Shown: in pieces, positions 51 through 20,018 of the stretch
How positions within the stretch are numbered: position 1 is the stretch's first letter
Layout of the letters: each line of letters starts with the position of its first letter
DNA from: a virus
IMG/VR virus record: IMGVR_UViG_3300029264_000324
Span: 1 to 20,112 of that record
Reading direction: 5' to 3' (one strand)
DNA: 20,112 nucleotides
The notes under the pieces: generated by a model
Told to the model about the DNA's origin: nothing
Database searches by the model: none
Seen by the model: only the letters and a program-made list of their open reading frames with translations
Program-made: the position numbers and the translations under genes

Positions 51-207
51 CGAACTACTCATAAAAATGGGGGCGACTGAGGCATGGGATGCCGTGCAGA
101 AAGCGTATGGACTGCTGTATGGGCCAGAAGCGCCGACAGATAAAGATAAACAGGATGCTGAGAAACTACTGAAAAAAGCAAACGAATGGCTTTCAGCGCT
201 CAAATAA
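43..207 (+). CDS. Small early-region phage protein, function unknown
   Basis: This is a 54-residue acidic/basic helical protein starting MNNELLIKMGATEAW and ending NEWLSALK. The start is supported by a strong ribosome site (TGGAGG at 32-37) five bases before the ATG. It lies 81 bases before the GemA-like gene, so it belongs to the early or middle phage operon. The composition (many Lys, Glu, Ala, Asp; no Cys; no hydrophobic stretch) predicts a soluble helical protein. I do not recognise a family. Confidence 0.7.
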   Translation: MNNELLIKMGATEAWDAVQKAYGLLYGPEAPTDKDKQDAEKLLKKANEWLSALK

Positions 208-288
208 CGCCGGAGTCGCGCGTCGAGGTACGAGATCGCCGCGCACCCGTGTGTTATTGATCGATCATCAAAAAAACAGGTTAAAAAA

Positions 289-705
289 ATGGCTAATTTA
301 AAAGCTCAAATACACATCGCTAAAACCCAGCTCGGCATGGACGACGACACGTACCGCGCTGTATTAAAATCCGCGACGGGCAAAACCAGTTGTGCGGACA
401 TGGGCGTGATTGATTTAAATAAAGCGCTGCAGGCGTTTAAAGATCGTGGTTTTAAATCTAAGCCACCGAAAAAGAAGCCGTCTAAAACCACCGCCACGCT
501 CACGGATAAATTAATCACGCAGTGGCGCGCGATGGGCGACGAGGGTATTGTGCGTGACGCGTCTGACGCTGCGCTGCGCAGTTATGTTGATCGACAAACC
601 GCTGGCAGATTTAAAGCACCACAGTTTTGCGACAACTATACGACTATAAAATTAATTGAGTCACTCAAGCAGTGGCAAAAGCGCGTTAAAAAGTCGAACG
701 TTTAA
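289..705 (+). CDS. gemA: GemA/gp16-like regulatory protein (DUF1018)
   Basis: This 138-residue protein matches the Mu GemA/gp16 family. The N-terminal block carries the typical KAQIHIAKTQLGMDDDTYR pattern (residues 5-23), followed by a TGKTS turn and a region ending in DRGFKSK. A lysine-rich linker (about 56-66) separates this from a C-terminal helical domain that ends KQWQKRVKK. In Mu, GemA affects expression of host genes and DNA supercoiling. The upstream ribosome site is weak (CAGG and an A-rich stretch). The Mor-like gene follows 11 bases later, the same pairing as gp16-gp17 in Mu. The family call is firm; the exact role here is inferred. Confidence 0.88.
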   Translation: MANLKAQIHIAKTQLGMDDDTYRAVLKSATGKTSCADMGVIDLNKALQAFKDRGFKSKPPKKKPSKTTATLTDKLITQWRAMGDEGIVRDASDAALRSYVDRQTAGRFKAPQFCDNYTTIKLIESLKQWQKRVKKSNV

Positions 706-716
706 CCGGAGGCCGT

Positions 717-1067
717 ATGTCTACACAAACCAAGTTCATGCGTGACGCGCCAGAGATGTTGATGGATCTCTACGATCACACGTCAGCCGCTGCACGCAAA
801 GCCGGACTGTCTGACGACGCGGCGGACAAACTCGCAATAGACGTCGTTGATCAGTTGGGCGAAACGTGGGCAGGCCAGCAGCTTTACTTCGGCAAGGGTT
901 GCATCATGCGCCTGCGCAAACGCGATTTAGATATCTATAACGAGTTCGACGGCAAAAACCACGCGGAGCTAGCCGCAAAATATAAAGTGAGCACAGTTTG
1001 GATTTACTCGATCATTCGCACAGTTAAGAAACAAATACACGCAGACGCTCAACAGCCGCTGTTGTGA
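717..1067 (+). CDS. mor: Mor/C family transcription activator
   Basis: This 116-residue protein belongs to the Mor/C family of Mu, dimeric DNA-binding activators that recruit host RNA polymerase to the middle and late promoters. The conserved beta-strand dimerisation block is seen as GQQLYFGKG (residues 53-61). The helix-turn-helix is at about 79-105 (GKNHAELAAKYKVSTVWIY). A strong ribosome site (GGAGG, 708-712) precedes the ATG. The gene sits directly before a 218-base non-coding gap and then the head operon. Only one Mor/C-type gene is visible, so this protein may activate the late genes itself rather than through a separate C protein. That role is inference. Confidence 0.9.
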   Translation: MSTQTKFMRDAPEMLMDLYDHTSAAARKAGLSDDAADKLAIDVVDQLGETWAGQQLYFGKGCIMRLRKRDLDIYNEFDGKNHAELAAKYKVSTVWIYSIIRTVKKQIHADAQQPLL

Positions 1068-1128
1068 TCGTTTTTAACGACCCGCTATATTGGCCCACGT
1101 TTTTAGTGTTAGGCATGTTTTGACGCCG

Positions 1129-1142
1129 TTTGACGCGTCAAA
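1129..1142. promoter_or_regulatory. 14-bp perfect palindrome, candidate activator site
   Basis: TTTGACGCGTCAAA is a perfect palindrome. A third copy of the half-site (TTTTGACGC, 1118-1126) lies about one helical turn upstream in direct orientation. This places three half-sites on one DNA face. The position, between the Mor-like gene and the head operon and upstream of a candidate -10 at 1173-1178, fits a binding site for the dimeric Mor-like activator or another regulator. No binding data; the assignment is inference. Confidence 0.5.
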
Positions 1143-1148
1143 GAGGTA

Positions 1149-1178
1149 TTTAAAAAGTAGCTGGCGCAGTGTTATTGT
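1149..1178 (+). promoter_or_regulatory. Candidate late promoter for the head operon
   Basis: An extended -10 element TGTTATTGT (1170-1178) is preceded at 18 bases by a weak -35 like TTTAAA (1149-1154). The palindrome at 1129-1142 would lie roughly 43-56 bases before the start site, about where Mor/C proteins bind in Mu. A poor -35 is expected for activator-dependent Mu promoters. A second possible arrangement uses an imperfect dyad, TTAA-N6-TTAA at 1210-1223, with a start site near 1256. Neither can be proven from sequence. Confidence 0.35.
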
Positions 1179-1255
1179 GAATCAACAACCAACCCCCCCG
1201 CAAAAACTCTTAAACTCCTTTAAAAGACCCCACCCGCGAACCACCGCATAGTGAT

Positions 1256-1277
1256 CTCACGTTATCTATTTCGTGAG
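1256..1277 (+). promoter_or_regulatory. Inverted repeat just before the protease start
   Basis: CTCACG (1256-1261) and CGTGAG (1272-1277) form a perfect 6-bp inverted repeat with a 10-base loop, ending 8 bases before the ATG at 1286. The only ribosome-site-like bases (GTGAG) are in the 3' arm, so in mRNA the hairpin could limit initiation of the protease gene. It could also be a DNA-level operator. Confidence 0.4.
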
Positions 1278-1285
1278 TCGCATCC

Positions 1286-2287
1286 ATGCCAGGCACAACA
1301 CCCAGCATCCACATTTTCAAAGCCGGTACTCATACCAGCGTCGCGGGCGACACAATCTCGTTTAGCGAATCCGAAGTTACCGCATCTATTAATGCCTACG
1401 ATCCAGCGATCCACGAAGCCCCTCTCGTTATCGGTCACCCAACATTAGATGGCCCTGCGTACGGTTGGGTTAAATCATTAGCCGCCGATGCCGACGGCAT
1501 GGTGGCGATCCCGGATCAAGTCAATGCCGATTTTGCAGAGATGCATAAAAGCGGCGCGTTTAAAAAAGTGTCCGCATCATTTTACCCCCCGACCTCCGCG
1601 AATAACCCTGTGCCCGGCGTTTGGTATTTACGTCACGTCGGTTTTTTGGGCGCGATGCCTCCAGCCATTAAAGGGCTGCGTAACCCCGAGTTCGCCGAGG
1701 GCGATGATTACATCACCGTTGAATTTTCCGAAGGTTTGCCTGCTGTCGACGAGCCTGCAACACCTATTACCGAAGAACCCCCAGCCACTCAAACCGAGGA
1801 CACCACCGTGACCGAAGCAGAAGCCGCAGCGTTAGCTGCAAAAAACAAACAGCTCGAAGCGGATTTGCTAGCCGAGAAAACCGCTCGCGCTAAAGACGCC
1901 GCGGACCAGCGCGCAAAAGAAAACGTTGCATTCGCTGAAAAGCTAGCAACAGAAACCCGCATCGGCAAAGACGAAGCGCCGTTAATCGCTGCCGTATTAA
2001 CCACGCTCGAAAACGCCGCCGCAGCAACGCCCGTGAATTTTGGCGAAGGTGATGCTGCAAAACCCTTGCACAAAGCGTTTGCAGATTCGTTGCAAGCGCA
2101 GCCCACCCGCGTGGAATTTGCAGAAATCGTCACCAAAGAAAAAGGTGCGGAAGCGGACGCCGACGATTCGGTGCAATACGCCGAAGGCACTTCGGAAGAA
2201 TCCATCGCCCTGGATAAAAAAATTCGCGCGCACATGAAAGCGCATTCTGTTGATTACACCACCGCCGCGCACGCGGTCGCTAAATAA
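1286..2287 (+). CDS. Mu I-like prohead protease / scaffold protein
   Basis: The 333-residue product resembles the Mu I protein, which processes the prohead and whose C-terminal part acts as scaffold. The protease domain covers roughly residues 1-140 and contains the blocks LVIGHPTLDGPAYGWV (about 48-62) and FKKVSASFYPP (about 92-102). His51 and Ser96/Ser98 are candidate catalytic residues, not proven. Residues about 175-230 are an Ala/Glu/Lys-rich coiled coil (EAAALAAKNKQLEADLLAEK), typical of scaffolds. The ribosome site is weak and lies in a hairpin arm. The capsid gene follows 11 bases later. An in-frame internal start at 1808 probably makes the scaffold alone. Confidence 0.88.
   Translation: MPGTTPSIHIFKAGTHTSVAGDTISFSESEVTASINAYDPAIHEAPLVIGHPTLDGPAYGWVKSLAADADGMVAIPDQVNADFAEMHKSGAFKKVSASFYPPTSANNPVPGVWYLRHVGFLGAMPPAIKGLRNPEFAEGDDYITVEFSEGLPAVDEPATPITEEPPATQTEDTTVTEAEAAALAAKNKQLEADLLAEKTARAKDAADQRAKENVAFAEKLATETRIGKDEAPLIAAVLTTLENAAAATPVNFGEGDAAKPLHKAFADSLQAQPTRVEFAEIVTKEKGAEADADDSVQYAEGTSEESIALDKKIRAHMKAHSVDYTTAAHAVAK
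1808..2287 (+). CDS. Probable nested scaffold protein (Mu Z-like) from an internal start
   Basis: A GTG at 1808-1810 is in frame with the protease gene and is preceded at 7 bases by GAGGA (1796-1800), a better ribosome site than that of the full-length gene. Initiation here would give a 159-residue protein made of the coiled coil and the C-terminal region without the protease domain. In Mu, scaffold Z is made in just this way from inside gene I, and lambda Nu3 from inside gene C. The site lies precisely at the protease/coiled-coil boundary, which supports a real start. Usage is inferred. Confidence 0.6.
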   Translation: MTEAEAAALAAKNKQLEADLLAEKTARAKDAADQRAKENVAFAEKLATETRIGKDEAPLIAAVLTTLENAAAATPVNFGEGDAAKPLHKAFADSLQAQPTRVEFAEIVTKEKGAEADADDSVQYAEGTSEESIALDKKIRAHMKAHSVDYTTAAHAVAK

Positions 2288-2298
2288 GGGGACAGTTT

Positions 2299-3222
2299 AT
2301 GGGACGTTTATCCAACCTCCGTGTTGTTGATCCGGTACTCACGCAACTAGCGATGGGCTACAGCAACAATGCGATGATCAGCGAGGCGTTATTCCCGCTG
2401 GCGGAAGTCGAAAAAGAAGGCGGCAAGATTCCAAAGTTTGGAATGGAGCACTTCAAAATTTACAACACGCTACGAGCATTGCGTGCAAAGTCAAACCGTA
2501 TTCAGCCTGAAGATATCGGCAGTATCGACATCATTCTGGATGAACACGATTTGGAATATCCGATCGATTACCGCGAAGACGCCGAGTCAATGTTCCCTGT
2601 CCGCGCGCACGCGACCAAAGTTGTGACTGAAGCGATTCAGTTACGACGTGAAAAAGCATGTGCCGATTTAGCTCAAAACCCGGCTAATTTCGCTACAGGT
2701 AATAAAATCACGCTGTCTGGTACCAGCCAGTTTACTGACAGCTCGTCTGACCCAGAAGGAGTAATCGACACGGGCAAGTCGGCTATTCGCTCAAAAATTG
2801 CGAAAGACCCTAACACGATGACGATGGGCCATGACGTGTGGCGTGTACTTAAGCGTCACCCGAAGATGCGTGAGCTGCTACCCAACATCACCAAACGTTT
2901 GATTTCGATCAAAGACCTGCAGGATATTTTTGAAATCGAAAATATCATTATCGGCAGCGCTGTAATGGCTGGCGACGACGGAGTGATTGAAGACATCTGG
3001 AAGGACAACATCAACTTGGCATACGTGCCCTCGGCGTCAAACACGCCGCGCAGCATGTACGAGCCATCGTTTGGTTACACGTTGCGTAAGCGCGGCGGCC
3101 TGGTGATGGATTCGCGCACAGAAGACGGCAAAGTCGAACTGATTCGTCAGACTGACAATTACCGTCCGTATTTGCTCGGTGCAGACGCTGGTTACCTAAT
3201 CAGCAACACCAACGCAGATTAA
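2299..3222 (+). CDS. Major capsid protein
   Basis: This 307-residue protein follows the scaffold gene, has a strong ribosome site (AAGGGGA), and has the features of the HK97-fold capsid proteins found in many siphophages and prophages. The start resembles the family pattern DPVLTQLAMGY, then ALFPLAEVEKEGGKIPKFG, with the conserved acidic D-to-R region LDEHDLEYPIDYREDAE near residue 75-92. It forms the icosahedral shell. The C-terminus reads YRPYLLGADAGYLI, matching the usual final beta strand. Family assignment is from overall pattern and position; the precise Pfam family was not checked. Confidence 0.85.
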   Translation: MGRLSNLRVVDPVLTQLAMGYSNNAMISEALFPLAEVEKEGGKIPKFGMEHFKIYNTLRALRAKSNRIQPEDIGSIDIILDEHDLEYPIDYREDAESMFPVRAHATKVVTEAIQLRREKACADLAQNPANFATGNKITLSGTSQFTDSSSDPEGVIDTGKSAIRSKIAKDPNTMTMGHDVWRVLKRHPKMRELLPNITKRLISIKDLQDIFEIENIIIGSAVMAGDDGVIEDIWKDNINLAYVPSASNTPRSMYEPSFGYTLRKRGGLVMDSRTEDGKVELIRQTDNYRPYLLGADAGYLISNTNAD

Positions 3223-3231
3223 GGGGGATTT

Positions 3232-3708
3232 ATGGCAGCTCGTAAACCAACCCCAAAAGCAGCGGCTGAACAAGCCGCTGCAACTCCGCCACCGGCTGCG
3301 GTAGTCGTTGATAAAGACGCAACCGACGCTGATGTAAAAGCCGCCCAGGAACAGGCCGAAGCCGACGCCAAAGCCGCTGAAGAATTAGCGGCCAAGGAAA
3401 AAGCCCAAGCCGATGCTAAGGCCGCTGAAGAATTAGCGGCCAAGGAACAAGCCGAAGCCGACGCCAAGGCCGCTGAAGAATTAGCGGCCAAGGAACAAGC
3501 CGAAGCCGACGCCAAGGCCGCTGAAGAATTAGCGGCTAAGGAGCAAGCCAAGGCCGCTGAACTTGAGCCGCTCGAATACGTTGTCAATTCCCCCGTCAAT
3601 CACGACGGCGAATCTTACAGCGTTGGTGACTACATCTATTTAACTGCTAAACAAGCCGCGCGTTTGGTCGCAAACGGCACCATTAGCATGACCGGAGAAT
3701 CCGCATGA
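3232..3708 (+). CDS. Ala/Glu/Lys tandem-repeat protein with C-terminal DUF7210-like domain
   Basis: The 158-residue product has three parts. Residues 1-40 are Ala/Pro-rich. Residues about 41-110 are nearly four copies of a 16-residue unit DAKAAEELAAKEQAEA, predicted as one long charged helix or coiled coil. Residues about 111-158 form a small domain (VNHDGESYSVGDYIYLTAKQ then ARLVANGTI) resembling the DUF7210 type, also seen in the 57-aa protein at 4998-5171. A good ribosome site (AGGGGGA, 3222-3228) precedes the ATG. It lies between the capsid and decoration genes, so it probably works on the head or head-tail joint. The role is unknown. Confidence 0.75.
   Translation: MAARKPTPKAAAEQAAATPPPAAVVVDKDATDADVKAAQEQAEADAKAAEELAAKEKAQADAKAAEELAAKEQAEADAKAAEELAAKEQAEADAKAAEELAAKEQAKAAELEPLEYVVNSPVNHDGESYSVGDYIYLTAKQAARLVANGTISMTGESA
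3364..3549 (+). repeat. 48-bp tandem repeat, about 3.9 copies, inside a coding gene
   Basis: Units start at 3364, 3412, 3460 and 3508. The second and third copies differ only at a few third-codon positions, while the first has two amino-acid changes (KEKAQA for KEQAEA). The last copy ends early and runs into AKAAELEP. The near identity at DNA level implies recent expansion by slippage or unequal crossing over, so copy number, and thus helix length, may vary between related phages. Confidence 0.9.
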
Positions 3709-4037
3709 AAACTCACATGCCTTTATTAGTAATGTCGATCACCGCCGCCTCGGCCATCGGCCAGCGCCGTTTTGTTGGCCTCGACGGCGACCTGTGCGGC
3801 GCGGGTGACAAAGCCCTCGGCGTAACGGAATACGCCGTTGATGCCGCTGATCAGGCCTCGGTTAACGCCAATGGCGTAATTCTGATCGAAGCCGCTGCCG
3901 CGATTGCCGTGGGTGCCGAAGTTGAGTCCGACGCCGCTGGCAAAGCGATCACGCTGAGCGCAGGTGTCAGCAACGGCTACGCGCTGGATGCTGCTACGGC
4001 AGACGGCGACGTCATCCGTATTGTGCGCGGTATTTAA
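3705..4037 (+). CDS. Capsid decoration (cement)-like protein, DUF2190 type
   Basis: This 110-residue protein overlaps the previous gene by ATGA (3705-3708), implying translational coupling. The sequence shows the DUF2190/cement pattern: RRFVGLDGDLCGAGDKALGV, then a run of short beta segments with VILIEAAAAIAVGAEVESD. Proteins of this family bind the outside of capsids and stabilise them. Length is in the usual 100-120 residue range. Confidence rests on pattern and on position after the capsid gene. Confidence 0.72.
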   Translation: MKTHMPLLVMSITAASAIGQRRFVGLDGDLCGAGDKALGVTEYAVDAADQASVNANGVILIEAAAAIAVGAEVESDAAGKAITLSAGVSNGYALDAATADGDVIRIVRGI

Positions 4038-4040
4038 CCC

Positions 4041-4541
4041 GTGGCCGCGTATGCAACAGTCGCTGAGTTAGCCCGCGTCGCGGTCAACGGCTGGGACGAA
4101 CTCGCCCAGTTTTCGACCCGCAATCCGCAGGTGACCGGCGACATGTTGCAGGCGGTGTACAACGACGAAACGCTCGACGATTTGTCGCTGAATATCGACG
4201 CGGCTGACGGGCTTGCAGAGCTAACAGACACGCTCGAAAACGTGTCTCGTTATGCCGACACGTATTTAAACCAACGCTATCGGGAATTAGTGCCGTTAGC
4301 GCCGGAGCATTATCAAAACACCGGCCTCGGTTACGCCGTGGCCGTGATTGCGCTGGGTCGACTGTACGGCATCAGACAAGACGAAGACATGCGCAAAGCG
4401 ATTAAAGCGCAGGAGGATTACCTGCGCGATTTAGCGTCGGGCAAAGCCTCGCTGGATTACACCCAGCCATCCACGCCAGAGCCGAGCGGTCGTATGACCG
4501 TGGTGGCTAAACCATCGGCATTTGATTGGGGCGGCTATTGA
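4041..4541 (+). CDS. Mu gp36-like head-tail connector protein (DUF1320)
   Basis: The start is GTG at 4041, three bases after the preceding stop; no better start exists and translation is probably coupled. The 166-residue product begins AAYATVAELARVAVNG and contains LENVSRYADTYLNQRYRELVPL and LGRLYGIRQDEDMRKAIKAQEDYLRDLASGK, the pattern of Mu gp36 (DUF1320), thought to sit at the head-tail interface. Its stop overlaps the next start by one base (TGATG), matching the gp36-gp37 order of Mu. Confidence 0.85.
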   Translation: MAAYATVAELARVAVNGWDELAQFSTRNPQVTGDMLQAVYNDETLDDLSLNIDAADGLAELTDTLENVSRYADTYLNQRYRELVPLAPEHYQNTGLGYAVAVIALGRLYGIRQDEDMRKAIKAQEDYLRDLASGKASLDYTQPSTPEPSGRMTVVAKPSAFDWGGY

Positions 4542-4984
4542 TGTTTACCGATATCGAAAGCGCCTTAGTTGAGCGATTAAAAACGCGGCTTAAAGCCATG
4601 ATGCCCGATGTGCATGTACTCACCGCTTCGGAGTTATCCGAAGTCGATGAAGCGCGCCAACCAACGCCTGCGGTGCACGTTATTTATAACGGCTATCGCA
4701 CGTTGCCAAACGCCCGTACCGACGGCAAGGCGGTTCAAGTATCGCAAACGTGGCTAACCGTGATCGCTGTTAGCAATGTGCGCAAACGCGGCAGCGGCGA
4801 AGCGGCACGAGAAGACGCCGTCGCGCTGTGTGAACAAGTAGCCGGTTGTTTGATGGGGTATTGGCCGCAATCGGCAGCCAGCCCGCTACGGCTAACCAAC
4901 GCACCGCGCAGCGGCGCAAGCAACGGATTTACATACGTGCCGCTGGCGTTTGCCGTGGACACAGTTTTAAAAGCAGCCAACTAA
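4541..4984 (+). CDS. Mu gp37-like protein (DUF1834)
   Basis: I chose the ATG at 4541, which overlaps the gp36-like stop, over the upstream TTG at 4526. The 147-residue product begins MFTDIESALVERLKTRLKAM and has the block PAVHVIYNGYR, followed by beta strands and a helix (EDAVALCEQVAGCLMGYW), as in the Mu gp37/DUF1834 family. These are tail-completion or head-tail joining proteins. It lies directly before a DUF7210-like gene and the tail tube gene. Confidence 0.82.
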   Translation: MFTDIESALVERLKTRLKAMMPDVHVLTASELSEVDEARQPTPAVHVIYNGYRTLPNARTDGKAVQVSQTWLTVIAVSNVRKRGSGEAAREDAVALCEQVAGCLMGYWPQSAASPLRLTNAPRSGASNGFTYVPLAFAVDTVLKAAN

Positions 4985-4997
4985 CCACGAGGTATTT

Positions 4998-5171
4998 ATG
5001 GCATCTACAAAAACGATCGACGTCACACTGGCGAAGGCACACACCCACGCGGGTAAAGACTACGCCGCTGGCGACAAAATTAACGTCCGCGAAGCAACCG
5101 CGTCGTGGTTAAAAAAAGCCGGTGTTGTTGCGGATAACGCGCCCACCACTAAACCCGTGAAAGGAGCATAG
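4998..5171 (+). CDS. Small DUF7210-like protein (position of Mu gp38)
   Basis: The 57-residue product reads from MASTKTIDVTLAKAHTHAGK through DYAAGDKINVREATASWLKK to a short tail. The pattern beta strand, HxGKxYxxGD, then a final helix with a hydrophobic end is typical of small DUF7210-like phage proteins and resembles the C-terminal domain of the protein at 3232-3708. The start has a ribosome site (CGAGG, 4988-4992). The stop is two bases before the tail tube start, and the tube's ribosome site lies inside this gene. Function unknown. Confidence 0.75.
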   Translation: MASTKTIDVTLAKAHTHAGKDYAAGDKINVREATASWLKKAGVVADNAPTTKPVKGA

Positions 5172-5173
5172 TC

Positions 5174-5950
5174 ATGGCCGAACGCGTAGCAGTTTATAAA
5201 CCCTATCTGGGCAGCGGCAAAGTCTGGTTGCGTGATCAATCGCTGCCAAACGGCCCGTCGTATCATATCGGTAACGTGTCAGTACTCACACTGACCGTGG
5301 ATGAAAACGTTATCGAGCAAGCCGATTTTACGTCGCCGGGCGGCGGTACTCACGCCGAAGTGCGTCGCATCAACTCTGTGACGGCGGCAATCACGATGCA
5401 CGACCTTAACGCCGATAACCTCGCGTTAGCGACAAAAGGCTCTAACACCGCCGTTGCTGCAGGCACGATTACCGACGAAGCCGGTACGGCGCATAAAGGC
5501 GCGCTAATTCGCCTAGCGAAGCCCAGTCCGACGACCGTTGTCGTGACTAGCTCGGATGGCAATACGACCTACACCGAAGGCACAGATTACGACGTAGTTG
5601 GTGCCGGTATTGTGATCGCGACCACCGGGGCGATTGCCACCGCGATTGACGCGCTAGGCACGCCATCGGATGGCTTACCCTTGCTCATTAGCTACGCATA
5701 TGGCGCGTACAACGAAGTAGAAGCACTGACCCAAGGCAACACGAACTGGGCGCTCACGTTCGACGGCGTGAACGAAGCAGATAGCGATAGCCCGCAAGTC
5801 GTTGATTTGCACAAGGTCAACTTGGGTGCGGCCAGTGAGTTGTCTTTGATTGGTGACGCGCTGGGTACGATCAGCGTTGAGGGTAAGTGCCTGAAAGACA
5901 GCAGCCAAGGCGCGGGTAAGTCTGCGTACTACCGAGTGCAGCAAGCCTAA
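5174..5950 (+). CDS. Major tail tube protein
   Basis: This 258-residue beta-rich protein is in the place of a tail tube gene, three genes after gp36/gp37-like genes and upstream of the tape measure. It starts MAERVAVYKPYLGSGKVWL and includes VDENVIEQADFTSPGGGTHAEVRRINSVTAAI, the strand-turn-strand of siphophage tube proteins. An insertion at about residues 105-180 (TYTEGTDYDVVGAGIVIATT) looks like an added beta domain. The ribosome site AAGGAG (5161-5166) is inside the previous gene. No sheath gene precedes it, hence a non-contractile tail. Confidence 0.78.
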   Translation: MAERVAVYKPYLGSGKVWLRDQSLPNGPSYHIGNVSVLTLTVDENVIEQADFTSPGGGTHAEVRRINSVTAAITMHDLNADNLALATKGSNTAVAAGTITDEAGTAHKGALIRLAKPSPTTVVVTSSDGNTTYTEGTDYDVVGAGIVIATTGAIATAIDALGTPSDGLPLLISYAYGAYNEVEALTQGNTNWALTFDGVNEADSDSPQVVDLHKVNLGAASELSLIGDALGTISVEGKCLKDSSQGAGKSAYYRVQQA

Positions 5951-5981
5951 AACACGGATGACATCTCAAGGAAGAGACCCA

Positions 5982-6015
5982 TTAAAAAAGGCGGCCATTT
6001 AGCCGCCTTTTTTAA
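5982..6015. terminator. Bidirectional rho-independent terminator
   Basis: A perfect GGCGGC/GCCGCC stem (5990-5995 and 6002-6007) with a six-base loop is flanked by six A's on the left and six T's on the right, so it terminates transcription from both strands. It closes the tail tube gene on the plus strand and the small membrane protein gene on the minus strand. Confidence 0.92.
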
Positions 6016-6025
6016 AGAGATTTTT

Positions 6026-6277
6026 TTAACGTCTGCCGAATAGCAGACCAAGCAGCCGGATAACGATGGCGGCGATAAAAGCAACTATAGCGATACCGAC
6101 CGAAAAGATAACGATGAACCCGAAGATCATTTGAAACACTTTGCCGGGGTCAAAACTATAAATGGCGGCGGAGATGAAAAACGCTATTACACCAACAATG
6201 ATCGCTAAAAACACCATCGCTTCTTTGAACTGCGATTTAAAACTGCGCTTCTCTTTATCAGAATGAGTCATATCCAT
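6026..6277 (-). CDS. Small two-helix membrane protein, moron-like
   Basis: On the minus strand, an 83-residue protein starts MDMTHSDKEKRSFKSQ. It has a charged N-terminus and then two strongly hydrophobic segments at about residues 20-40 (AMVFLAIIVGVIAFFISAA) and 48-75 (MIFGFIVIFSVGIAIVAFIA onward), ending LLGLLFGRR. The ATG at 6277 is favoured because GAGG lies nine bases before it; MTHS at 6271 is the alternative. It is convergent with the tail tube gene, shares the bidirectional terminator, and its ribosome site and promoter must lie inside the start of the tape measure gene. Single inverted genes with their own terminator are typical of morons, often superinfection-exclusion factors. That role is inference. 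Confidence 0.75.
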   Translation of the reverse strand: MDMTHSDKEKRSFKSQFKEAMVFLAIIVGVIAFFISAAIYSFDPGKVFQMIFGFIVIFSVGIAIVAFIAAIVIRLLGLLFGRR

Positions 6278-9200
6278 GAGCAAAGACCTCGAATTAGCGT
6301 TAAAGATTAAAGTCGATAAAAAAGACGGTGAAACCAATCTTACCGCGTTTAACCGCGCATTTAAAAGCGCGATGTCTGATATTGGCAAAAGCTCCGATGA
6401 CGTAGATGCATTTGGTCGTTTAATTGTAGACCTTAAAACAGGTAAAAAAGCGGTTGAAGAATTAGACGCCGAAACAAAACAACTATACGACACGTACAGC
6501 AAAGGCGCTCAACTTGCCGCCGATAAAGACATTCTTGGTGTTCGTGCCCACGCTGAAATTCAGAAAGAAATTGATGAGACCCGCCAAGCGTACGATCGCT
6601 TAAAAAAATCGGGCACACTCACCCAGCAAGAACTTGCCCAAGCCGCACTAAAAACAGAAGAGCGCATCCGCGAACTTAAACACGAAACTAACGGTTGGAC
6701 GGATGCCCTGCAAGCCGCTAGCGGCAGCATCGCGGGGCTAGCCGCTTCGGCGGCCTCGTTGGCCGTTGCCGCGGGCTATGCCATCGATTTTGAATCATCG
6801 ATGGCTGACGTTCGAAAAGTGGTCGAAGGCACCGACGAACAATTCGATGGACTTACCGAACGTTTAAAAGACATGACCGGCGAGCTGCCGATCACGGCGC
6901 AAGGTCTCGCCGAAATCGCGGCCGCTGGCGGGCAACTGGGCGTACCGATTGAAAAGCTCGACCAATTTGTTGAACTGGCCGCCAAAATTGGTGTGGCGTT
7001 CGATTTAAGCACGGCTCAAGCCGGTGATGCTGTCGCCAAACTTAGCAATATTTTTGATATACCCATCGAAAACGTCGAGCAGCTCGGCGACGCCATTAAC
7101 GTGCTGGGCAATACCACCGCTGCGCGCGAAGCGGATATTTTAGACGTACTGACTCGCATCGGTGGTACCGCTAAACAATTTAAGTTAACAGCGGAGCAAG
7201 GCGCGGCATTGGCGGCCACAATGATTGCAATGGGCGCGAAGGCGGAAGTCGCCGGTACTGGCATCAACGCGCTGTTGAGTAAGCTGCAAACCGCTAACGT
7301 TCAGTCGCCAGAATTTAAACGCGCACTGGAAGGTATCGGCATTTCTGCTGTGCAGTTGGGCGACGATATTCGAAACAACCCACAAAAAGCGTTAACCGAT
7401 TTTTTAAGAACGCTGGAAAAACTCGACGATCAAGCCCGTGCGGAAACTCTGACTAAGTTATTTGGCCAAGAGTACCAGGACGACATTGCTCGGCTGTTAA
7501 ACGGCTTGGATAAGTATGACCAAGCGCTGGCCCGCGTAAATGATACCGGCACCACCGCAGGTGCCATGCAGCGCGAATTCGCAGAGCGTATGAAGACCAC
7601 CGAGGCTGAAATTCAGCTGATGCAAAACGGCTTGCAAGAAGTGGCGATTAATTTAGGCACCATCTTTTTGCCCGCGATCAGAGAAGCGGCGGTCGCGATT
7701 GGAGACGTGTCACGCGCACTCGCCGATTTTGTCGAAGCCAACCCTGCGATTGCAACGATCGCGACAACGTTGGCGACGGTTGCGGTATCGGCTGGCGCGC
7801 TACGTTTATTATTTTTGTCGCTGGGCGTTGTAGGCGCGAAAGCGTTTGGCGGTATAGGAAAAGAGATCGCCATCGCAAATACTGAACTGCGGCTATTATC
7901 AACACAGGTTGGCAAAACAGGAGCCGCGTTTCGAGTCGCCGGAGGAATAGCATCGGCCGCGTGGATCGGCTGGGATATCGGTACACAACTGCGCGAACAG
8001 TTTGTAGAAGTCGAGCGTGCGGGTATAGCGCTGGCCGCCGGTCTCACTAAAGTTGCTGAGCGTATTAAATTTATTTTTGACGTGATTGATACCGGAGACT
8101 GGGACGCGTCACTGGGCCGATTAGAGGGACGTTTAAAAAACGTTGATGAAATTTACGGCGACATGTTCGCTGATACGTATAAGCCGAAAGAAAAACTCGA
8201 TGAACTCGGTAACGCTGCCGCGGCGGCAGCTGATAAGGCGGCAGCCGCTGCACAAACCATCCGCGATAATTTCGCAAAGTTAGACCTCACATCAGCCAGC
8301 GGGATTATCGGTTTTACTAAACAAATTGATGCTGCGAAAGACAGCGCCAGTTTACTCACTGACGAATTAAAAAAATGGATCGCCGAGACCAAAGCCGCCG
8401 ACTTGCAGTCGTTTCAAGATGGGTTGGTTGATGCCTTTGTCGACGGCAAGTTATCTGCAGAAAAACTGACTGAATATAATCAGTTGGTGTTGTCGCAATC
8501 ATTTACCGCGTTGGGTGTGACCGCCGAAACCGCACTCGGTAAAATCAGCCCCGCTGCGCAAGAGGCCATCGGGCAGATTGATTTGATCGAGCAAACCCTC
8601 ACCAGCATGGCCATTACTGGCACGCAAAAAATGGGCGCGCTTGAAGTGGCTATCCGTGGTGCGGTTGGCCAAGCCGATACTCAAACCGCCGTGCAAGCGT
8701 TGCGCGATCGTGTCGCCGAATTGGGTGAAAGCGGAGACTTAACCGCAGCACAAATGAAGCGCTTATCTGACACACTGGACGCGCAAAGCAACGCCATTAA
8801 TCAGATCACACCGGGCATACAATCGGTTGAAGACGCCATGCGATCGCTGGGCGTGACCAGCCAAGCCGAGCTGCAAAAAGCCGCTGACTCGGCCCGTTTA
8901 GCGTACGAGCAAGTTAAGTTGATGGGCGGCACCCTCGAAGATCAGAAAACCGCATTCATCGCCTACGCTCAAACCGTGATCGCGGCGAATCAAAACGTGA
9001 CCGAATCACAGCGCGCCGTTGCGCTGGCCGAACTCGAAATACAGGCCGCTGTATTAGGTGTGACGGAGCAATTCAACACATTAGCCGCCGCTGGTGAATC
9101 CGCCGGTAACAAGGTTGCGGAGAGCGCAAAAAAAGCCGCCGCATCAACTCGTGATTTAGGTACTGCCGCTGTCGAAAGCTCGCACGACGTTCAAGCCGTC

Positions 9201-10064
9201 GCCGCATCATTAGCAGAATGGTTTGTGTCGGTACGCGCAGAAATGTCAGCGCTTAGCGCCGAAGCCGGTGCGCTATTCGACGACAAAATGGGTCTGCAAT
9301 CCTCGGGTACCGTTAACGAAGTCGACGCGTTAAAAGCTGCGCTGTCAGCGGCCCACGAGGAACTCGGAAAAATCGCGATCGACAATATTCAAGTGTTCGA
9401 TCCGACCGGCGTAAATCGCTGGAAGAATTCTGTACTGCAGGCGAAGAATGAAACCGTCAGCGCGTACAACGAGCAAAAATTGAAGTTTTTGGAATACACC
9501 GAGGCCCTCCAAAACGGCGAAACGTTAAACGCCTCGTTTATCCGTAACGCCGAAACCGCGGTCGGCACAATGAAGCTGCTCGGCTCTCAGGATCTCGCGA
9601 CCCTGCGCAGTGCAATTGACAGCGCAACGCAAAAGCTGGAGTCGATGCGCGAAGCCGCGAAAGCAACGCGCGATAGCTTGCAAGACGAGTTGGATCGGAT
9701 TAACGGCAATCAAGCCAATATTGATAAAAACGAGTACGAACGTAAAAAAGCCGAAGCACAAAAAGAGCTAGAAAATGCGCGGCTATACGGCGATCAACAA
9801 GCGATAAATTACTGGACCGAAGCGCTGAAATTATTAGATCAGGTGCGCAGCGCGAAGGCGCAAAAGGCTCGCGAAGACGCGGCGTCTAGCAACGCTCAAG
9901 CGGGTAGCGGTGCGGCATCTACCCAAACTCAGTCAACGTCAAAAACTTACGACGTAAACGTTAATTTCGGTGGCGAAAAAACAAAGTTAGCGTTCGCAAA
10001 TGAGGCATCTGCGGATAGCTTTTTATCGCTAATGAACGACTTTAAAAACCGCTCAGGAGGCTAA
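6276..10064 (+). CDS. Tail tape measure protein
   Basis: The 1262-residue length, helical composition and position identify the tape measure protein, which sets tail length and is ejected into the host envelope. Residues about 140-400 match the TP901-type tail domain, with the FESSMADVRKVVEG block near 172 and repeated helices (AAATMIAMGAKAEVAGTGIN). A hydrophobic segment lies at about 488-520 (AIATIATTLATVAVSAGA then LRLLFLSLGVV). A charged coiled coil is near 1130-1170, followed by a short beta tail. The start overlaps the start of the minus-strand gene, and its ribosome site is poor. No tail chaperone gene precedes it, which is unusual. Confidence 0.93.
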   Translation: MSKDLELALKIKVDKKDGETNLTAFNRAFKSAMSDIGKSSDDVDAFGRLIVDLKTGKKAVEELDAETKQLYDTYSKGAQLAADKDILGVRAHAEIQKEIDETRQAYDRLKKSGTLTQQELAQAALKTEERIRELKHETNGWTDALQAASGSIAGLAASAASLAVAAGYAIDFESSMADVRKVVEGTDEQFDGLTERLKDMTGELPITAQGLAEIAAAGGQLGVPIEKLDQFVELAAKIGVAFDLSTAQAGDAVAKLSNIFDIPIENVEQLGDAINVLGNTTAAREADILDVLTRIGGTAKQFKLTAEQGAALAATMIAMGAKAEVAGTGINALLSKLQTANVQSPEFKRALEGIGISAVQLGDDIRNNPQKALTDFLRTLEKLDDQARAETLTKLFGQEYQDDIARLLNGLDKYDQALARVNDTGTTAGAMQREFAERMKTTEAEIQLMQNGLQEVAINLGTIFLPAIREAAVAIGDVSRALADFVEANPAIATIATTLATVAVSAGALRLLFLSLGVVGAKAFGGIGKEIAIANTELRLLSTQVGKTGAAFRVAGGIASAAWIGWDIGTQLREQFVEVERAGIALAAGLTKVAERIKFIFDVIDTGDWDASLGRLEGRLKNVDEIYGDMFADTYKPKEKLDELGNAAAAAADKAAAAAQTIRDNFAKLDLTSASGIIGFTKQIDAAKDSASLLTDELKKWIAETKAADLQSFQDGLVDAFVDGKLSAEKLTEYNQLVLSQSFTALGVTAETALGKISPAAQEAIGQIDLIEQTLTSMAITGTQKMGALEVAIRGAVGQADTQTAVQALRDRVAELGESGDLTAAQMKRLSDTLDAQSNAINQITPGIQSVEDAMRSLGVTSQAELQKAADSARLAYEQVKLMGGTLEDQKTAFIAYAQTVIAANQNVTESQRAVALAELEIQAAVLGVTEQFNTLAAAGESAGNKVAESAKKAAASTRDLGTAAVESSHDVQAVAASLAEWFVSVRAEMSALSAEAGALFDDKMGLQSSGTVNEVDALKAALSAAHEELGKIAIDNIQVFDPTGVNRWKNSVLQAKNETVSAYNEQKLKFLEYTEALQNGETLNASFIRNAETAVGTMKLLGSQDLATLRSAIDSATQKLESMREAAKATRDSLQDELDRINGNQANIDKNEYERKKAEAQKELENARLYGDQQAINYWTEALKLLDQVRSAKAQKAREDAASSNAQAGSGAASTQTQSTSKTYDVNVNFGGEKTKLAFANEASADSFLSLMNDFKNRSGG

Positions 10065-10069
10065 TAATC

Positions 10070-10456
10070 ATGTTACTTGATGCTGTAGCACTGCCGCCAA
10101 ATTTGTACTGGTCAAACGAGTTCGCCTTTAAACCCGTGTCGCAAAGCAAGCAACGCGGAGTGACCGGACGCATGATTATTCAGTCCGCTCCGCTGGTGTA
10201 CGGCCAGCCGATAACGCTGACCGGTGCTTGGATCACCCGCGCTGAGTTGCTCGTGTTGCAAGCAATGGAAAACGCGATTGATACCGTGCGCACGCTCACG
10301 TTAAACAACGGCGACACGCACTCGGTGCTATTCGATCTCGATGCCGGTGGCCTTGCTACGACGTCGGAATATCCGCTCACCGCGCCGCTGTGCAACCCAG
10401 ACGCAGACACGCTTTATAAAATCACCATCAATTTAATAACTGTTTCAGGAGCCTAA
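10070..10456 (+). CDS. Minor tail protein, function unknown
   Basis: This 128-residue protein begins MLLDAVALPPNLYWSNEF and is rich in beta strands (GRMIIQSAPLVYGQPITLTG), ending with KITINLITVSG. A perfect AGGAGG (10055-10060) precedes the ATG. It immediately follows the tape measure, the position of distal tail or tail-tip proteins in siphophages. I do not recognise a named family. Confidence 0.75.
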   Translation: MLLDAVALPPNLYWSNEFAFKPVSQSKQRGVTGRMIIQSAPLVYGQPITLTGAWITRAELLVLQAMENAIDTVRTLTLNNGDTHSVLFDLDAGGLATTSEYPLTAPLCNPDADTLYKITINLITVSGA

Positions 10457-10459
10457 AAA

Positions 10460-13400
10460 ATGGCTATTAATAAATCCGACGTAGCACTATTTTTGCCCGA
10501 GGGTGTTGGTGATAATCCAGACGACGGCGGCAAGCAAACCGGCACGGAATTAATATCTGGCGACGTTAATGCGCTTTTTGCTGACATTGGCCCTAACGAT
10601 CAGGTGCGTGGTCGTGTCGCAATACGCACGCTTTTCGGCGCGGTTAAAGCCGCGAACGCAGATTTGTTTTTAAATAGCAGCTGGGCGTTAACGCAAGACG
10701 CCGCTGCCGAGAATATTAGTACGCTGTTATTTGATACCGGCAATCACTACGCCGTGCGCTCGGAAATTCAAAACGATATTGAGCGCTATGTGCTCAAGTC
10801 GCAATTATCTGCGCTGCGCCCACGCGGCACCCAAAGTGCAGGACAAAAAAACCTGATTGTATATGCAGACAAGAAAACCGATGCGCCGGAGGTTGGCGAG
10901 GTGTTAATGCTGGAATACAACAGCGTTGAGCAATACGTAAAAGTGCTCGATGTCGATGTGATCAGCGCGTCGTATACATACATTGATAGCCAAGGCGCGT
11001 ATCAAAAATACAATGCGTATGAAATGACGCTGCGGCTGAGCCAAGAATTAGTGCAGGATTTTCCGGCGTCGGATCCGATGCCCGTCGTGAGTAACAGCAC
11101 TCAGATTTTTAATACGCAAGGCAATCCCGGTGCAAAATATTACGGCATTAAAGCGCTGGCCGCTGATGCTGTGGCCGGTGATTCGAGCGTGAGCGTCGAG
11201 AGTATTTTTCAACCGCTGGTACCCGCGTCGACGACAGAAAAAGCCTACGCGGACCAAACCCCAGGCATTGTGCAAAAGATGGTGCAGGCAGCGGCCACGG
11301 CAACTAAAACTCGCAGCATAGGAACGCTGACCGGTACGCAGTTTTTAACACTGCCAACGGCGTGGGTGCCCGGCACGCTAACGTTAACCGTGGCGGGCAG
11401 CACATACGACGAAGCGGATGGCTCATTACGTTTGTTGTCGGGATCTAACTATTTAAGTGATATTACGATTAGCGCGGCAGCCGGTACGCTCGGATTTACT
11501 GTGAGCGGCAGTCGTTCGGTATCTGTTTCATACATTCCCGGCGTTGCCGTTGAGTTAACGCCGTATACCGATTCGGTGTTAATTACGGACGGTAATCGAC
11601 AACTAACGTATACGTTCCAAGTCGCACCCAATCCATCCCCCGGCACGCTGCGGATTGATTGGTCGTATCTCGGAAAGTGGTATTCGATGATCGACGACGG
11701 CACAGGCACGTTGACTGGTCCAAGCGCGAGCGGTGCAATTAATTACGACACCGCTTCAGGTTCGTTTACGCTGCCGAGTGAGCCGGATTTAAACTCGCAA
11801 ATTATCTATACGTGGGCGCAAACGCCGTACTCGGTTGCTACCGCTGGCGCACGGTCGGCTTGGTTCGAAATTGCGCTCGATGATCAGCCGATGGCCGGTA
11901 CGCTCGATCTTGCGTGGTCGCGCAGCGGTACGAATTACACAGCCACTGCCGACAGCTCTGATGTGTTATCCGGCGGCGCGGGTAGTAGCGCGGGCAGTAC
12001 ATTGACGTTTACCCCGTCGGTCTTGCCAAGTGGCGATTTAACGATTAATTACGACAAGCTCAACACCGCGATTTTAACCGCGAGCGTGGCAGTCGCGGAG
12101 CAAAGCGGCGGGTCAATTGTGCTCGATGTGAGCCAAACGAATATCGTCGCAGGGTCGTTTAGTTTTGAGTTGGATTTAACGTACACGCAGTCGACGTTAA
12201 CCGGCGGCACACTTTACGAATCGCGAATGGGTACGACAGAGCGTTTTGTATCCAATGCCCAAGGTCAACTTAAAGCAAATTCGATGGGCGGCGCGGTCGT
12301 GGGCACCGTTGATCATGCGGCGGGTACTATCACAATCGACGCTGATTTATTCACGCGCAGCGTTATCGACTATACAAAACTCAATACGGTGCTGGGCGGT
12401 TATCAGCAGTCGCGCATTGATAAACTCATGCGTGTTGAATCGCAAACAACAACGATCAGCTATCGCTCAACCAGTGCGGGAATCCCCGTTACTCAAACAA
12501 TCGCGCACGCGGATTTAGTGCTAAAAATAAACGTCGCTGATGACTCGCTCGTGCCCGGCTCTGTTGTACTCACGCTCGACGGCACCGAGTTAATTGATCG
12601 CGGGGACGGCGTGTTATATCGCAGCTTTAACTTAACGACCGCGGCCGGTTTATCGACCGGCACAATCGATACCGTAAACGGCTTCGCTGAGATTAATTAC
12701 GCCTTGATTAGTAGTGTTGTTGATTCGCTCAGCGGCTCGCTCGATGCGGCCGCGATTGGTTTGGGTGCTGCTGTTGCTGTTACGTCTGTTGTGTTTCGTA
12801 CGATTGCCGCCCCGTTGCGTAGTAGTGGTCTGCAGTTCCTAGCACGGCGCTCGACCGACGGCGCGTTGATGCGGGCGGTATCAGACAACGACGGCGTGAT
12901 CACCGGCTCGTTTGATGCCGGTAACACATTAACTGAGTTACCGCAGCCGGGCGTTAGCAATGGCTACGTGCTCCCGTTTGTGCCAACCAGCACAAGCGCA
13001 GGCAGCGCTAGCGGTAATGTCGATAGCATCGCGGGCGTGGTCGAAATTACGTTTACGCAACCCGTTATTTTATCAACGCTAACGTACAACGCGGTGGTTT
13101 ACAGCACAGTGCCGCAAAACCCTGAACGCCTCGGTTTAAACCCCGTACGCTTGCCCACGAACGGCCAAGTGCCAGCGTTCCAAGACGGTTATTTAGCGCT
13201 GATTCATCACACGGCCAGCGTGAGCGTAGCAACGCCTGTGGCGGGCGATGTGATCGATTGCGGCCGTACCGATTTAGCCGTTGTTGTTGTTAAAGACTCG
13301 CTCGGCGCGTTGCTCGCCTACGATCAATACGCAGTCGATTTAGCCACCGGATTGGTCACTCTCGCGACTCCGTTCAGCGCCATCGATGCCAACGGCAACT

Positions 13401-13999
13401 CGCTCACATTGCCGTTGGTTGTGTATCACCGCATACAAGATCGCGCGGTGATCGTTAGCGCATTATTAACCGGCGAAATCCAACTCGGCTTGCAGCTAAC
13501 GCACGATTATCCGGCGAGTGAAAGTTACATCAGCGCAATGGTCGAGACCGGCGATCTTCAGGCGCGTGTGAAAAATCTGTTTTATCAAAAAACCGACGTG
13601 GCGGGTGTGTTTACCGACGAGCTCAGTGGCGATGCATCAACCGCCAGTTACGATGATCTTAACTATCCTCTGCTTGTGGATTCACGCGGGGCCGTTAAAG
13701 ACCGCTGGAAATTAAAATTTACGTCGACGACGGGTTTTCAGTGTATTAGCGAACAGCGTGGAGTGATCGGCACGGGTAGTACCGCTGTGGATTTTTCACC
13801 GATTAATCCGATGACCGGAACGCCGTATTTTACGATTCGCGCGGCCGGATTCGGTGAGGGCTGGGTAACCAGCAACGTGATCGCATTTGCGACTGATCCG
13901 TGCAGCGCGCCGGTAGCGATTATTCGTACTGTAATACCGAGTAATACGCCCGTCGCCGACGGCAAAGTGGTTATCGAGTTTTTAGGAGCGGCAGACTAA
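10460..13999 (+). CDS. Large beta-repeat tail structural protein
   Basis: The 1179-residue product starts MAINKSDVALFLPEG three bases after the previous stop. Residues 1-300 are mixed alpha/beta and include ADLFLNSSWALTQDAAAENI. From about 300 to 900 there are five or six degenerate repeats of a beta-sandwich-like unit with the pattern [PA]GTLxLxW, then DDGxGxLxG, then GxIxYxTG, for example GTLRIDWSYLGKWYSMIDDG. The remaining 280 residues are beta-rich. This suggests an elongated tail-tip or fibre-like protein, but it is not a recognised receptor-binding family. The stop overlaps the next start (TAATG). Confidence 0.78.
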   Translation: MAINKSDVALFLPEGVGDNPDDGGKQTGTELISGDVNALFADIGPNDQVRGRVAIRTLFGAVKAANADLFLNSSWALTQDAAAENISTLLFDTGNHYAVRSEIQNDIERYVLKSQLSALRPRGTQSAGQKNLIVYADKKTDAPEVGEVLMLEYNSVEQYVKVLDVDVISASYTYIDSQGAYQKYNAYEMTLRLSQELVQDFPASDPMPVVSNSTQIFNTQGNPGAKYYGIKALAADAVAGDSSVSVESIFQPLVPASTTEKAYADQTPGIVQKMVQAAATATKTRSIGTLTGTQFLTLPTAWVPGTLTLTVAGSTYDEADGSLRLLSGSNYLSDITISAAAGTLGFTVSGSRSVSVSYIPGVAVELTPYTDSVLITDGNRQLTYTFQVAPNPSPGTLRIDWSYLGKWYSMIDDGTGTLTGPSASGAINYDTASGSFTLPSEPDLNSQIIYTWAQTPYSVATAGARSAWFEIALDDQPMAGTLDLAWSRSGTNYTATADSSDVLSGGAGSSAGSTLTFTPSVLPSGDLTINYDKLNTAILTASVAVAEQSGGSIVLDVSQTNIVAGSFSFELDLTYTQSTLTGGTLYESRMGTTERFVSNAQGQLKANSMGGAVVGTVDHAAGTITIDADLFTRSVIDYTKLNTVLGGYQQSRIDKLMRVESQTTTISYRSTSAGIPVTQTIAHADLVLKINVADDSLVPGSVVLTLDGTELIDRGDGVLYRSFNLTTAAGLSTGTIDTVNGFAEINYALISSVVDSLSGSLDAAAIGLGAAVAVTSVVFRTIAAPLRSSGLQFLARRSTDGALMRAVSDNDGVITGSFDAGNTLTELPQPGVSNGYVLPFVPTSTSAGSASGNVDSIAGVVEITFTQPVILSTLTYNAVVYSTVPQNPERLGLNPVRLPTNGQVPAFQDGYLALIHHTASVSVATPVAGDVIDCGRTDLAVVVVKDSLGALLAYDQYAVDLATGLVTLATPFSAIDANGNSLTLPLVVYHRIQDRAVIVSALLTGEIQLGLQLTHDYPASESYISAMVETGDLQARVKNLFYQKTDVAGVFTDELSGDASTASYDDLNYPLLVDSRGAVKDRWKLKFTSTTGFQCISEQRGVIGTGSTAVDFSPINPMTGTPYFTIRAAGFGEGWVTSNVIAFATDPCSAPVAIIRTVIPSNTPVADGKVVIEFLGAAD

Positions 14000-15024
14000 T
14001 GACGGCACCCACCATTTATTACTCCGACGACGCCGGTGCGCCGGTGCTCACTAACGGCCAAGATGCGTTTTATCAAGTATTAAAAGCGTGTTTGATCGAT
14101 GGCTACGGCAGCAAGGCGGCGGCGGGCTGGAGTGTCGTTTATGACGACTGGGCCGCGAGCGGGCACGCGAGTTTTACTAACGCTGGACAGTCCGGCGTGC
14201 TCGGTTTAGTGCGTGCAACAACGACAGATTACCCGCCGTTTATGTACGTTGCGGAGGCGATGATTGACGCACAAACGGCGGTTAATGCGCGCAGCGGTGA
14301 GCGCGCAATTGCGGACATAACGACGGATTTTGTTGAAGGGTCGAGCGAAGTGACGCAGCGTCCGGTGAGTTATAAATCGCACTATCCGTACTGGTGTGTT
14401 GTTGCGAATGAAAATTTTGCGTGGGTGTGGATGTCGAGTGGTAGCACGTTATTAACCACGGGGCTGTCGTCGCTAGCGTACTCTGTCGTGGGGTTTGGTG
14501 CGATCAGACATTTTCGCGGTCTGGGAGATATTAGCAGTCCCACGCTCGGAAACTTTTCAATTTTTGGCGGCACTAATACAAATTATATGGCATTGCAATC
14601 AAATCGTGGCTCATTTAACTCCGCTGCCGGGGGCGGCAATAATGCGGGCACGGTGTTTTACGGATTGGACGGTCAGATTGCAGTATCAGACAATACATAT
14701 TCGTTTTGGCCGTTTTTTCAGTCATATGCGGACGGCGGCGGCGGCGGTATCGGTGAATCTGATACCGCGATTATTGAATTGCCAATTTATCGGGCGTCTG
14801 TGTATCTCGTCGATAGCAGAGGAACCCGGTACGGTAATCAAATCGGGGATATGCCTGCAATATATTGCAATGCGGCCGCGTGTGTGGAAGCGGACTGGTT
14901 AGATCGTGTGTATGTCGGTGATGATTTAAAAACGCAATTTACGATTGCGGGAAAAACGTTTTTTAAAGTTCGGCTGATCTACAACGTCGCATTTTTATCA
15001 CTCGACGCGAGCGACTGGGCATGA
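13999..15024 (+). CDS. Tail structural protein, hypothetical
   Basis: The 341-residue product starts by overlap with the previous stop. Its N-terminus (YYSDDAGAPVLTNGQDAFYQ, then LKACLIDGYGSKAAAGWSV) follows a pattern I know from structural proteins of many tailed phages. The middle is aromatic and Gly-rich, with a DGGGGGIGE stretch near residue 250. The C-terminal half contains Cys residues (YCNAAACVEADW). It is probably a minor tail or baseplate component that works with the two flanking proteins. No enzymatic motif is seen. Confidence 0.75.
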   Translation: MTAPTIYYSDDAGAPVLTNGQDAFYQVLKACLIDGYGSKAAAGWSVVYDDWAASGHASFTNAGQSGVLGLVRATTTDYPPFMYVAEAMIDAQTAVNARSGERAIADITTDFVEGSSEVTQRPVSYKSHYPYWCVVANENFAWVWMSSGSTLLTTGLSSLAYSVVGFGAIRHFRGLGDISSPTLGNFSIFGGTNTNYMALQSNRGSFNSAAGGGNNAGTVFYGLDGQIAVSDNTYSFWPFFQSYADGGGGGIGESDTAIIELPIYRASVYLVDSRGTRYGNQIGDMPAIYCNAAACVEADWLDRVYVGDDLKTQFTIAGKTFFKVRLIYNVAFLSLDASDWA

Positions 15025-15761
15025 CGGTTACAGTAACCATCGCTGATGTTGTCGTGTCTCCGATTGCCGTCGTGCCGCCGGTATATGCATCTATTAATCA
15101 CAACCTGCCGACCGATGCCGACTTTTTTGTAGTCCAGTTTTTTCGGTCTATTAATCAGCCAGAAACAGTGATCGTCGTGCGCGACAAGCTGCGGTTTTTG
15201 ATCGCGGGTATCGACACTAGCGCAACGTATAAGTTGTTAGCATTTAAAATCAGCAACGGAATCGCAGATGGCGTTTGGTGGGTAGACGATTACGTATATG
15301 ACCCCGATCAAGTCAACATCGTATTTAAGTCGAGTGCGGAAAACTCACAAACCGGCGAACCAAAATCATACTCGGGCACTATACTCGTTGCCGATTTACC
15401 CGCGATCCGAACCGTGGTTGCTATCGCGCTCGATGCTGATACGCCGTATTTATTAGCCAGCACCCAATCCGACAGCAACGGCGCGTACACGCTAAATTGG
15501 AACGGCTACAGCGGGCAAATGCTCGTCACGGTGCACGACGATTACGGCATAGCCCACGTAAGCGGCGAAGCGCGCGGCGTCGGTGAGCGTATTCATCCGT
15601 CTATATATAACGGCTACGTTTACGACGTAACGATTACGGGCACGTTAGGATTGGAGCCAACATGGCCAACGGAGGCCGGTCAAACTGTGTTGTCTGGCTC
15701 GTGTCAGTTAATCGCGGTGCCATTTTACAAACCGCAAACGCAAGGGCCGTATTTTGTTTGA
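15021..15761 (+). CDS. Tail protein with carboxypeptidase-regulatory-like domain
   Basis: This 246-residue protein overlaps the previous gene by ATGA. The N-terminal part is beta-rich and resembles a fibronectin-like fold (HNLPTDADFFVVQFFR, TSATYKLLAFK). Residues about 115-180 look like a transthyretin or carboxypeptidase-regulatory domain (YSGTILVADLP, LLASTQSDSNGAYTLNWNGY), which is common in phage tail appendages. The C-terminus ends PFYKPQTQGPYFV. Likely a tail-tip protein; the receptor role is unproven. Confidence 0.68.
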   Translation: MTVTVTIADVVVSPIAVVPPVYASINHNLPTDADFFVVQFFRSINQPETVIVVRDKLRFLIAGIDTSATYKLLAFKISNGIADGVWWVDDYVYDPDQVNIVFKSSAENSQTGEPKSYSGTILVADLPAIRTVVAIALDADTPYLLASTQSDSNGAYTLNWNGYSGQMLVTVHDDYGIAHVSGEARGVGERIHPSIYNGYVYDVTITGTLGLEPTWPTEAGQTVLSGSCQLIAVPFYKPQTQGPYFV

Positions 15762-15773
15762 GGGTTATCAATA

Positions 15774-17546: not shown

Positions 17547-17547
17547 C

Positions 17548-19939: not shown

Positions 19940-20018
19940 ATTATATTGCAGAGTGTGTCGTGGTATACGCGTTCTAAATATTGCATTTATTTAGGCGCAA
20001 ATATCGCGGCGCGCTTCA
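19940..20018. repeat. attR: Prophage right end with transposase-binding repeats
   Basis: Read inward from 20018, the sequence begins TGAAGCGCGCCGCG, very like the Mu right end TGAAGCGGCGCACG. GCGATATTTG (19998-20007), GCAATATTTA (19975-19984) and GCAATATAAT (19940-19949) are three copies of one repeat on the minus strand. The first two are spaced 23 bases, similar to Mu R1-R2; the third is 35 bases further in. The terminal CA at 20017-20018 is the rule for Mu-type elements. A terminal CA at 20020 is the alternative. Confidence 0.8.

Follow-up and report, generated by a model that had tools for sequence, protein, structure and literature searches.

A Mu-like phage with packaging and lysis genes at its left end and predicted common control of two late regions

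The window analyzed here, a stretch of 20,112 bases that is the only contig of IMG/VR virus record IMGVR_UViG_3300029264_000324, very probably (about 0.92) constitutes the right half of a complete transposable (Mu-like) phage of about 39.6 kb, whose packaging and lysis genes have moved to the left and would be under common Mor control with the head and tail genes. The places of the modules and the ends of the element are observed directly, and the phage is complete as far as gene families can tell. The initial annotation of this DNA had pointed out that only 218 bases separate mor from the protease gene, which is borne out by the open reading frame (ORF) coordinates and profile matches: mor stops at 1067, the protease gene starts at 1286, and the 218 bp between them (1068-1285) hold no conserved gene. 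Its statement that no lysis, packaging or portal gene occurs elsewhere in the window also agrees with the profile searches, as no match to the terminase, Portal_Mu, gp30/F or lysis families was obtained among the 20 ORFs of the window that were searched against PHROGs, Pfam profiles being used as well. A “portal protein” label (phrog_209) on 4526-4984 was rejected, Pfam assigning this ORF to the tail terminator/Gp37. The genes described as missing are indeed missing from the window, but not from the phage, since they lie on its other half.

Location of the packaging and lysis genes in the phage and its relatives

The left edge of the window is only a contig end, with about 19.7 kb of phage DNA to the left of base 1. 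Bases 1-141 of the window, read on the opposite strand, are exactly identical to bases 1-141 of another IMG/VR contig, IMGVR_UViG_3300029264_000415 (G018, 19,817 bp). De Bruijn assemblers leave such a fixed overlap between neighboring contigs, and 141 is a usual value of k. A 59-mer taken from the overlap returned G018 as the sole IMG/VR contig, in scans from which the record of the window itself may be omitted. Besides, the similarity of the window to its close relative G001 starts only at base 203, so that the overlap falls in a stretch not common to G001, where two different phages are unlikely to match by chance. Taken together, the two contigs give an end-to-end length of about 39.6 kb (19,817 – 73 + 20,018 – 141). 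The full set of packaging and lysis genes, which the initial annotation proposed to look for to the left of the window, is present on G018.

In window orientation, bases 1-73 of this contig are other DNA and the phage end TGACCACCACTGAG is found at base 74. A packaging operon runs leftward from about 5760 and comprises a DUF2730-like gene, a phrog_436 gene, TerS (phrog_426, E=2e-36), TerL (538 aa), a portal-F fusion and G. Portal and F are fused in this lineage in one ORF of 740 aa carrying both Portal_Mu and Phage_Mu_F (L078:11614-13833 in G018; L071:651-2870 in G001). A lysis operon runs rightward from 6173 and comprises an M15-type endolysin, a short holin-like protein and an Rz-like spanin with a weak match (E=1e-4). 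Beyond it lie genes in leftward orientation, among which G001 has a CI-type repressor, and then MuA and MuB in rightward orientation. The transposase of G018, scanned as a fragment, belongs to phrog_310 and its DNA transposition protein to phrog_296, the transposition genes of G001 matching rve (weakly) and AAA_22. A protein of 469-482 aa is encoded after the lysis genes (L071:7380-8789 in G001; 7376-8824 on the G018 map); for the copy in G001, neither Pfam nor PHROGs gave a match. The whole element would thus read, in its left part, left end, leftward packaging genes (G, portal-F fusion, TerL, TerS, two small genes), rightward lysis genes and leftward repressor region, and in its right part, rightward MuA, MuB, early genes, gemA and mor, followed by protease, capsid, tail, com and cargo genes up to the right end.

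The same order is carried by relatives on single contigs, each with the full packaging and lysis set. In G001, G002, G004 and, after reversal, G020, the portal gene lies far to the left on the minus strand, and Mor and capsid genes lie close together on the plus strand. A 211-kb contig of Thalassolituus sp. UBA674 holds a whole prophage of this order (44614-84358, 39,745 bp) with TG...CA ends. The alignment with G001 is unbroken at 86% identity from window 203 to 6013, spanning the gap between mor and the protease gene. This adjacency recurs in at least eight relatives, with gaps of 216-262 bp in most cases and, for the G004 group, of 357 bp, so that no assembly join lies there. The usual order is seen in 11 other IMG/VR records: where portal and capsid genes were both identified, the former precedes the latter by about 4 kb in the same orientation.

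In the TerL tree, the nine rows of the lineage form one clade (support 100), whose sister is L090 together with Pseudomonas phage Komp_PAO1_1 (PQ287647; support 99). The capsid rows also form one clade (87/82) once L143 and L144, which are members of the group, are counted. Because the TerL clade of the lineage stands beside Komp_PAO1_1, in which TerS to capsid form one block, one relocation appears to be the simplest reading: in the ancestor of a single lineage, the packaging block would have been turned round to the left end, with the lysis genes alongside. Locus L139 7873-13484, from Oceanospirillaceae SP177, resembles the window phage in TerS (72% identity) and in the portal part (60%), its TerL being just 36% identical, which places it outside the TerL clade; it looks like a case of TerL swapped within an otherwise kept packaging operon.

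The end of the phage at 20018, as initially proposed, is right. The last phage bases GCGCAAATATCGCGGCGCGCTTCA match the right end GCGCAAATATCGCGCGCGGCTTCA of the chromosomal prophage, where this sequence stands directly before the target duplication. Moreover, the right end of the window (19974-20018, closed by TTCA at 20018) and the left end of G018 are inverted repeats, with 25 of 45 positions matching for a random mean of 11. Such TG...CA ends with terminal repeats are those of transposable (Mu-like) phages, and the UBA674 prophage is flanked directly outside both ends by a 6-bp target duplication, CCTCGC. In several contigs, the left ends diverge exactly at TGA[AC]CACCA; the different host DNA found beyond this point would fit replicative transposition with packaging of host DNA at both ends. 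No target duplication of the window's own insertion was found between window 20019-20112, 94 bp of DNA beyond the phage that apparently belong to a bacterial gene, and the left 73 bp of G018, which indicates that the two contig ends come from different insertions.

Predicted common control of the two late regions

The gap at 1068-1285 appears to be a non-coding late control region, its length being kept in relatives, and in their alignment its best conserved part is TTAAACnnnTTTAAAAGA. A 16-bp dyad, CTTAAACTCCTTTAAA, made of six bases on each side of a 4-bp spacer, occupies 1209-1224 and is a predicted Mor-binding box, of which a second copy is found at G018 5818-5833 (window orientation). In the window plus G018, the box TTAAACNNNTTTAAAAGA occurs exactly at window 1210 and G018 5819 only, none being expected, and within two mismatches one further match appears, an overlapping reverse reading at G018 5815 (0.05 expected per 40 kb). 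The G018 copy stands between the leftward packaging operon and the rightward lysis operon and is a near-perfect palindrome. The box is present at both equivalent places in G001, G002, G004 and UBA674, and in a less exact form in G020. A second palindrome, which is perfect, was observed in the gap at 1129-1142 (TTTGACGCGTCAAA); it is kept in G001 and not in all relatives.

In each of the three directions, a –10-like hexamer (CATAGT, CAAACT, TAAACT or TACACT) follows 19-20 bp past the box. The plus-strand copy in the window, CATAGT at 1247-1252, is the predicted –10 hexamer of the head and tail (PI-like) promoter, with the same spacing in relatives and a start predicted near 1259. Mor of Mu binds a 16-bp dyad centered at –43.5 in a promoter that has no –35 element. 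With the hexamer at 1247 taken as the –10, the dyad of the window would be centered near –42.5, i.e., within about 1 bp of the Mu Pm-type geometry for this predicted start. The candidate activator is encoded just upstream, at 717-1067 on the plus strand (PF08765, E=2.7e-31; phrog_532, late transcriptional activator), and is the sole Mor/C gene found in the window. A similar arrangement was found in Pasteurella phage AFS-2018a (MH238466), where the same dyad lies 51-85 bp before the amidase gene, the protease gene and two tail/baseplate genes, with five matches in total for 0.04 expected. Its Mor is 37% identical to that of the window, and its ORF12 has no similarity to the latter.

According to these predictions, Mor, as the product of the end of the early transcript, would bind the dyad at 1209-1224 and turn on transcription of the head and tail genes. 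It would also bind the palindrome between the packaging and lysis operons, from which both would start divergently, and the two separated late regions would thereby be switched on together. One activator probably drives both late regions. The more detailed proposal, in which a single palindromic Mor site acts both ways, on packaging leftward and on lysis rightward, and its second copy some 20 kb away drives heads and tails, is only slightly favored. If true, a single-activator late program would span a split late region.

Alternative explanations and comparison with known systems

Of the three explanations put forward in the initial annotation for the short distance between mor and the protease gene, the leftward move of the modules is the one that stands; deletion and dependence on a helper lack support. 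A precise large deletion leaving a defective prophage would account for the adjacency, all the more as AFS-2018a has lysis and packaging genes at this very place, but at least eight relatives show the adjacency, and in four of them, as in the complete chromosomal prophage, every packaging gene is present at the left end. The gap itself has a conserved control site and no scar, and the overlapping contig G018 carries TerL, portal and endolysin genes for the phage, provided that it joins the window. A deletion is hence highly improbable. Still less credible is a satellite depending on the packaging functions of a helper phage: terminase and portal genes are not found in the window, as this would require, but the window encodes its own capsid, protease and tail proteins, and terminase, portal and lysis genes are carried by the overlapping contig and by every relative whose sequence reaches far enough to the left. 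That the adjacency was created by an assembly chimera at 1068-1285 may be conceived for a metagenome-type contig such as the window, but this is next to negligible given the unbroken G001 alignment and the similar gaps of independent contigs and of a bacterial chromosome.

The gene order could hold and the dyad be bound by another regulator, from the phage or the host, instead of Mor, since binding of Mor is predicted only and some Mor-bearing phages lack the box. This appears rather unlikely in view of the 16-bp size of the dyad, its spacing to a –10-like hexamer and its place before late genes, to which are added its occurrence ahead of four late genes in AFS-2018a, a phage with a related Mor, and the absence of the box from the repressor-early region in the scan of the window plus G018. 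Several points nevertheless weigh against the relocation of the modules under common Mor control. Mor binding is predicted, as are the three promoters. The box was sought and not found in Komp_PAO1_1, Bise and PhiKM, which indicates that the dyad is not general for Mor. The short G018 protein with two hydrophobic stretches was judged holin-like by eye only. The join between G018 and the window was deduced from the overlap of the contig sequences, and the unlike host flanks, though expected for virion DNA, leave the pairing of the contigs unproved.

By its transposition genes, ends, target duplication and Mor/C-type activator, the element classifies as a transposable (Mu-like) phage, with a gene order that departs from the canonical group. 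The canonical order quoted initially (mor, lysis, TerS, TerL, portal, F, G, protease) is that seen in AFS-2018a. Like the window phage, Mu and AFS-2018a possess transposition genes, Mor, TerS, TerL, portal, F, G, protease and capsid, and AFS-2018a has the dyad before both lysis and protease genes. However, in Mu and AFS-2018a the lysis and packaging genes lie between mor and the protease gene and all run rightward, whereas in the window phage packaging runs leftward at the left end with lysis alongside. Pseudomonas phage Bise (OR683401) also has TerL, portal, F and G leftward at its left end, and protease, capsid and tail genes rightward, but the inversion extends to its whole early arm including Mor, which keeps packaging after Mor; in the window phage only packaging is leftward. 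Komp_PAO1_1 shares with the window an ABC-GNAT gene and a formyltransferase gene side by side (64% and 47% identity), and differs by its single block from TerS to capsid, its Mor-bearing early genes running the opposite way and its lack of the dyad box. Finally, in Leptospira transposable prophages, 6-bp duplications were described, and those of group TG1 are reported to have a separated TerS-TerL-Portal block and to be without Mor/C (PMC8705779); the comparison with the window phage and its relatives covers the block separation and the 6-bp duplication, and the hosts differ.

In the limited literature searched, no description was found of the present order (only packaging leftward, lysis alongside, mor beside protease), nor any paper on Thalassolituus together with a Mu-like phage. 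Novelty is limited to the gene arrangement and the predicted common late control. A lineage of transposable phages with an inverted packaging block at the left end is hereby documented, one member of which is present in a Thalassolituus genome. The false lead of a defective or helper-dependent phage is removed, and the case illustrates that a short Mu-like virus contig can look incomplete. The conserved activator-type box, which stays before both late regions, offers a simple and testable case in which modules would move and timing would be kept.

Other genes of the window

All remaining assigned genes of the window lie on the plus strand. GemA (289-705; PF06252, E=2.3e-31) precedes Mor as the last part of the early region. 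Downstream of the gap are the head maturation protease/scaffold (gene I, 1286-2287; phrog_976, E=1.1e-89) and the major capsid protein (2299-3222; phrog_1005, E=3.3e-104). Between the capsid gene and the later head genes, 3232-3708 encodes a 158-aa protein that consists mostly of near-identical EQAEADAKAAEELAAK-type repeats. Other head, neck and tail genes occupy 3705-17775 and include Gp36, the tail terminator, the major tail protein, the tape measure and further tail proteins. The last genes, at 17907-19932, encode a Com homologue (phrog_6417), followed by cargo genes for an ABC-ATPase/GNAT fusion (phrog_11143) and a formyltransferase-like protein (phrog_9240). By eye, a DNA adenine methylase-like gene takes the place next to Com in UBA674 and G004. 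This slot may be an exchangeable DNA-modification site, comparable to com-mom in Mu.
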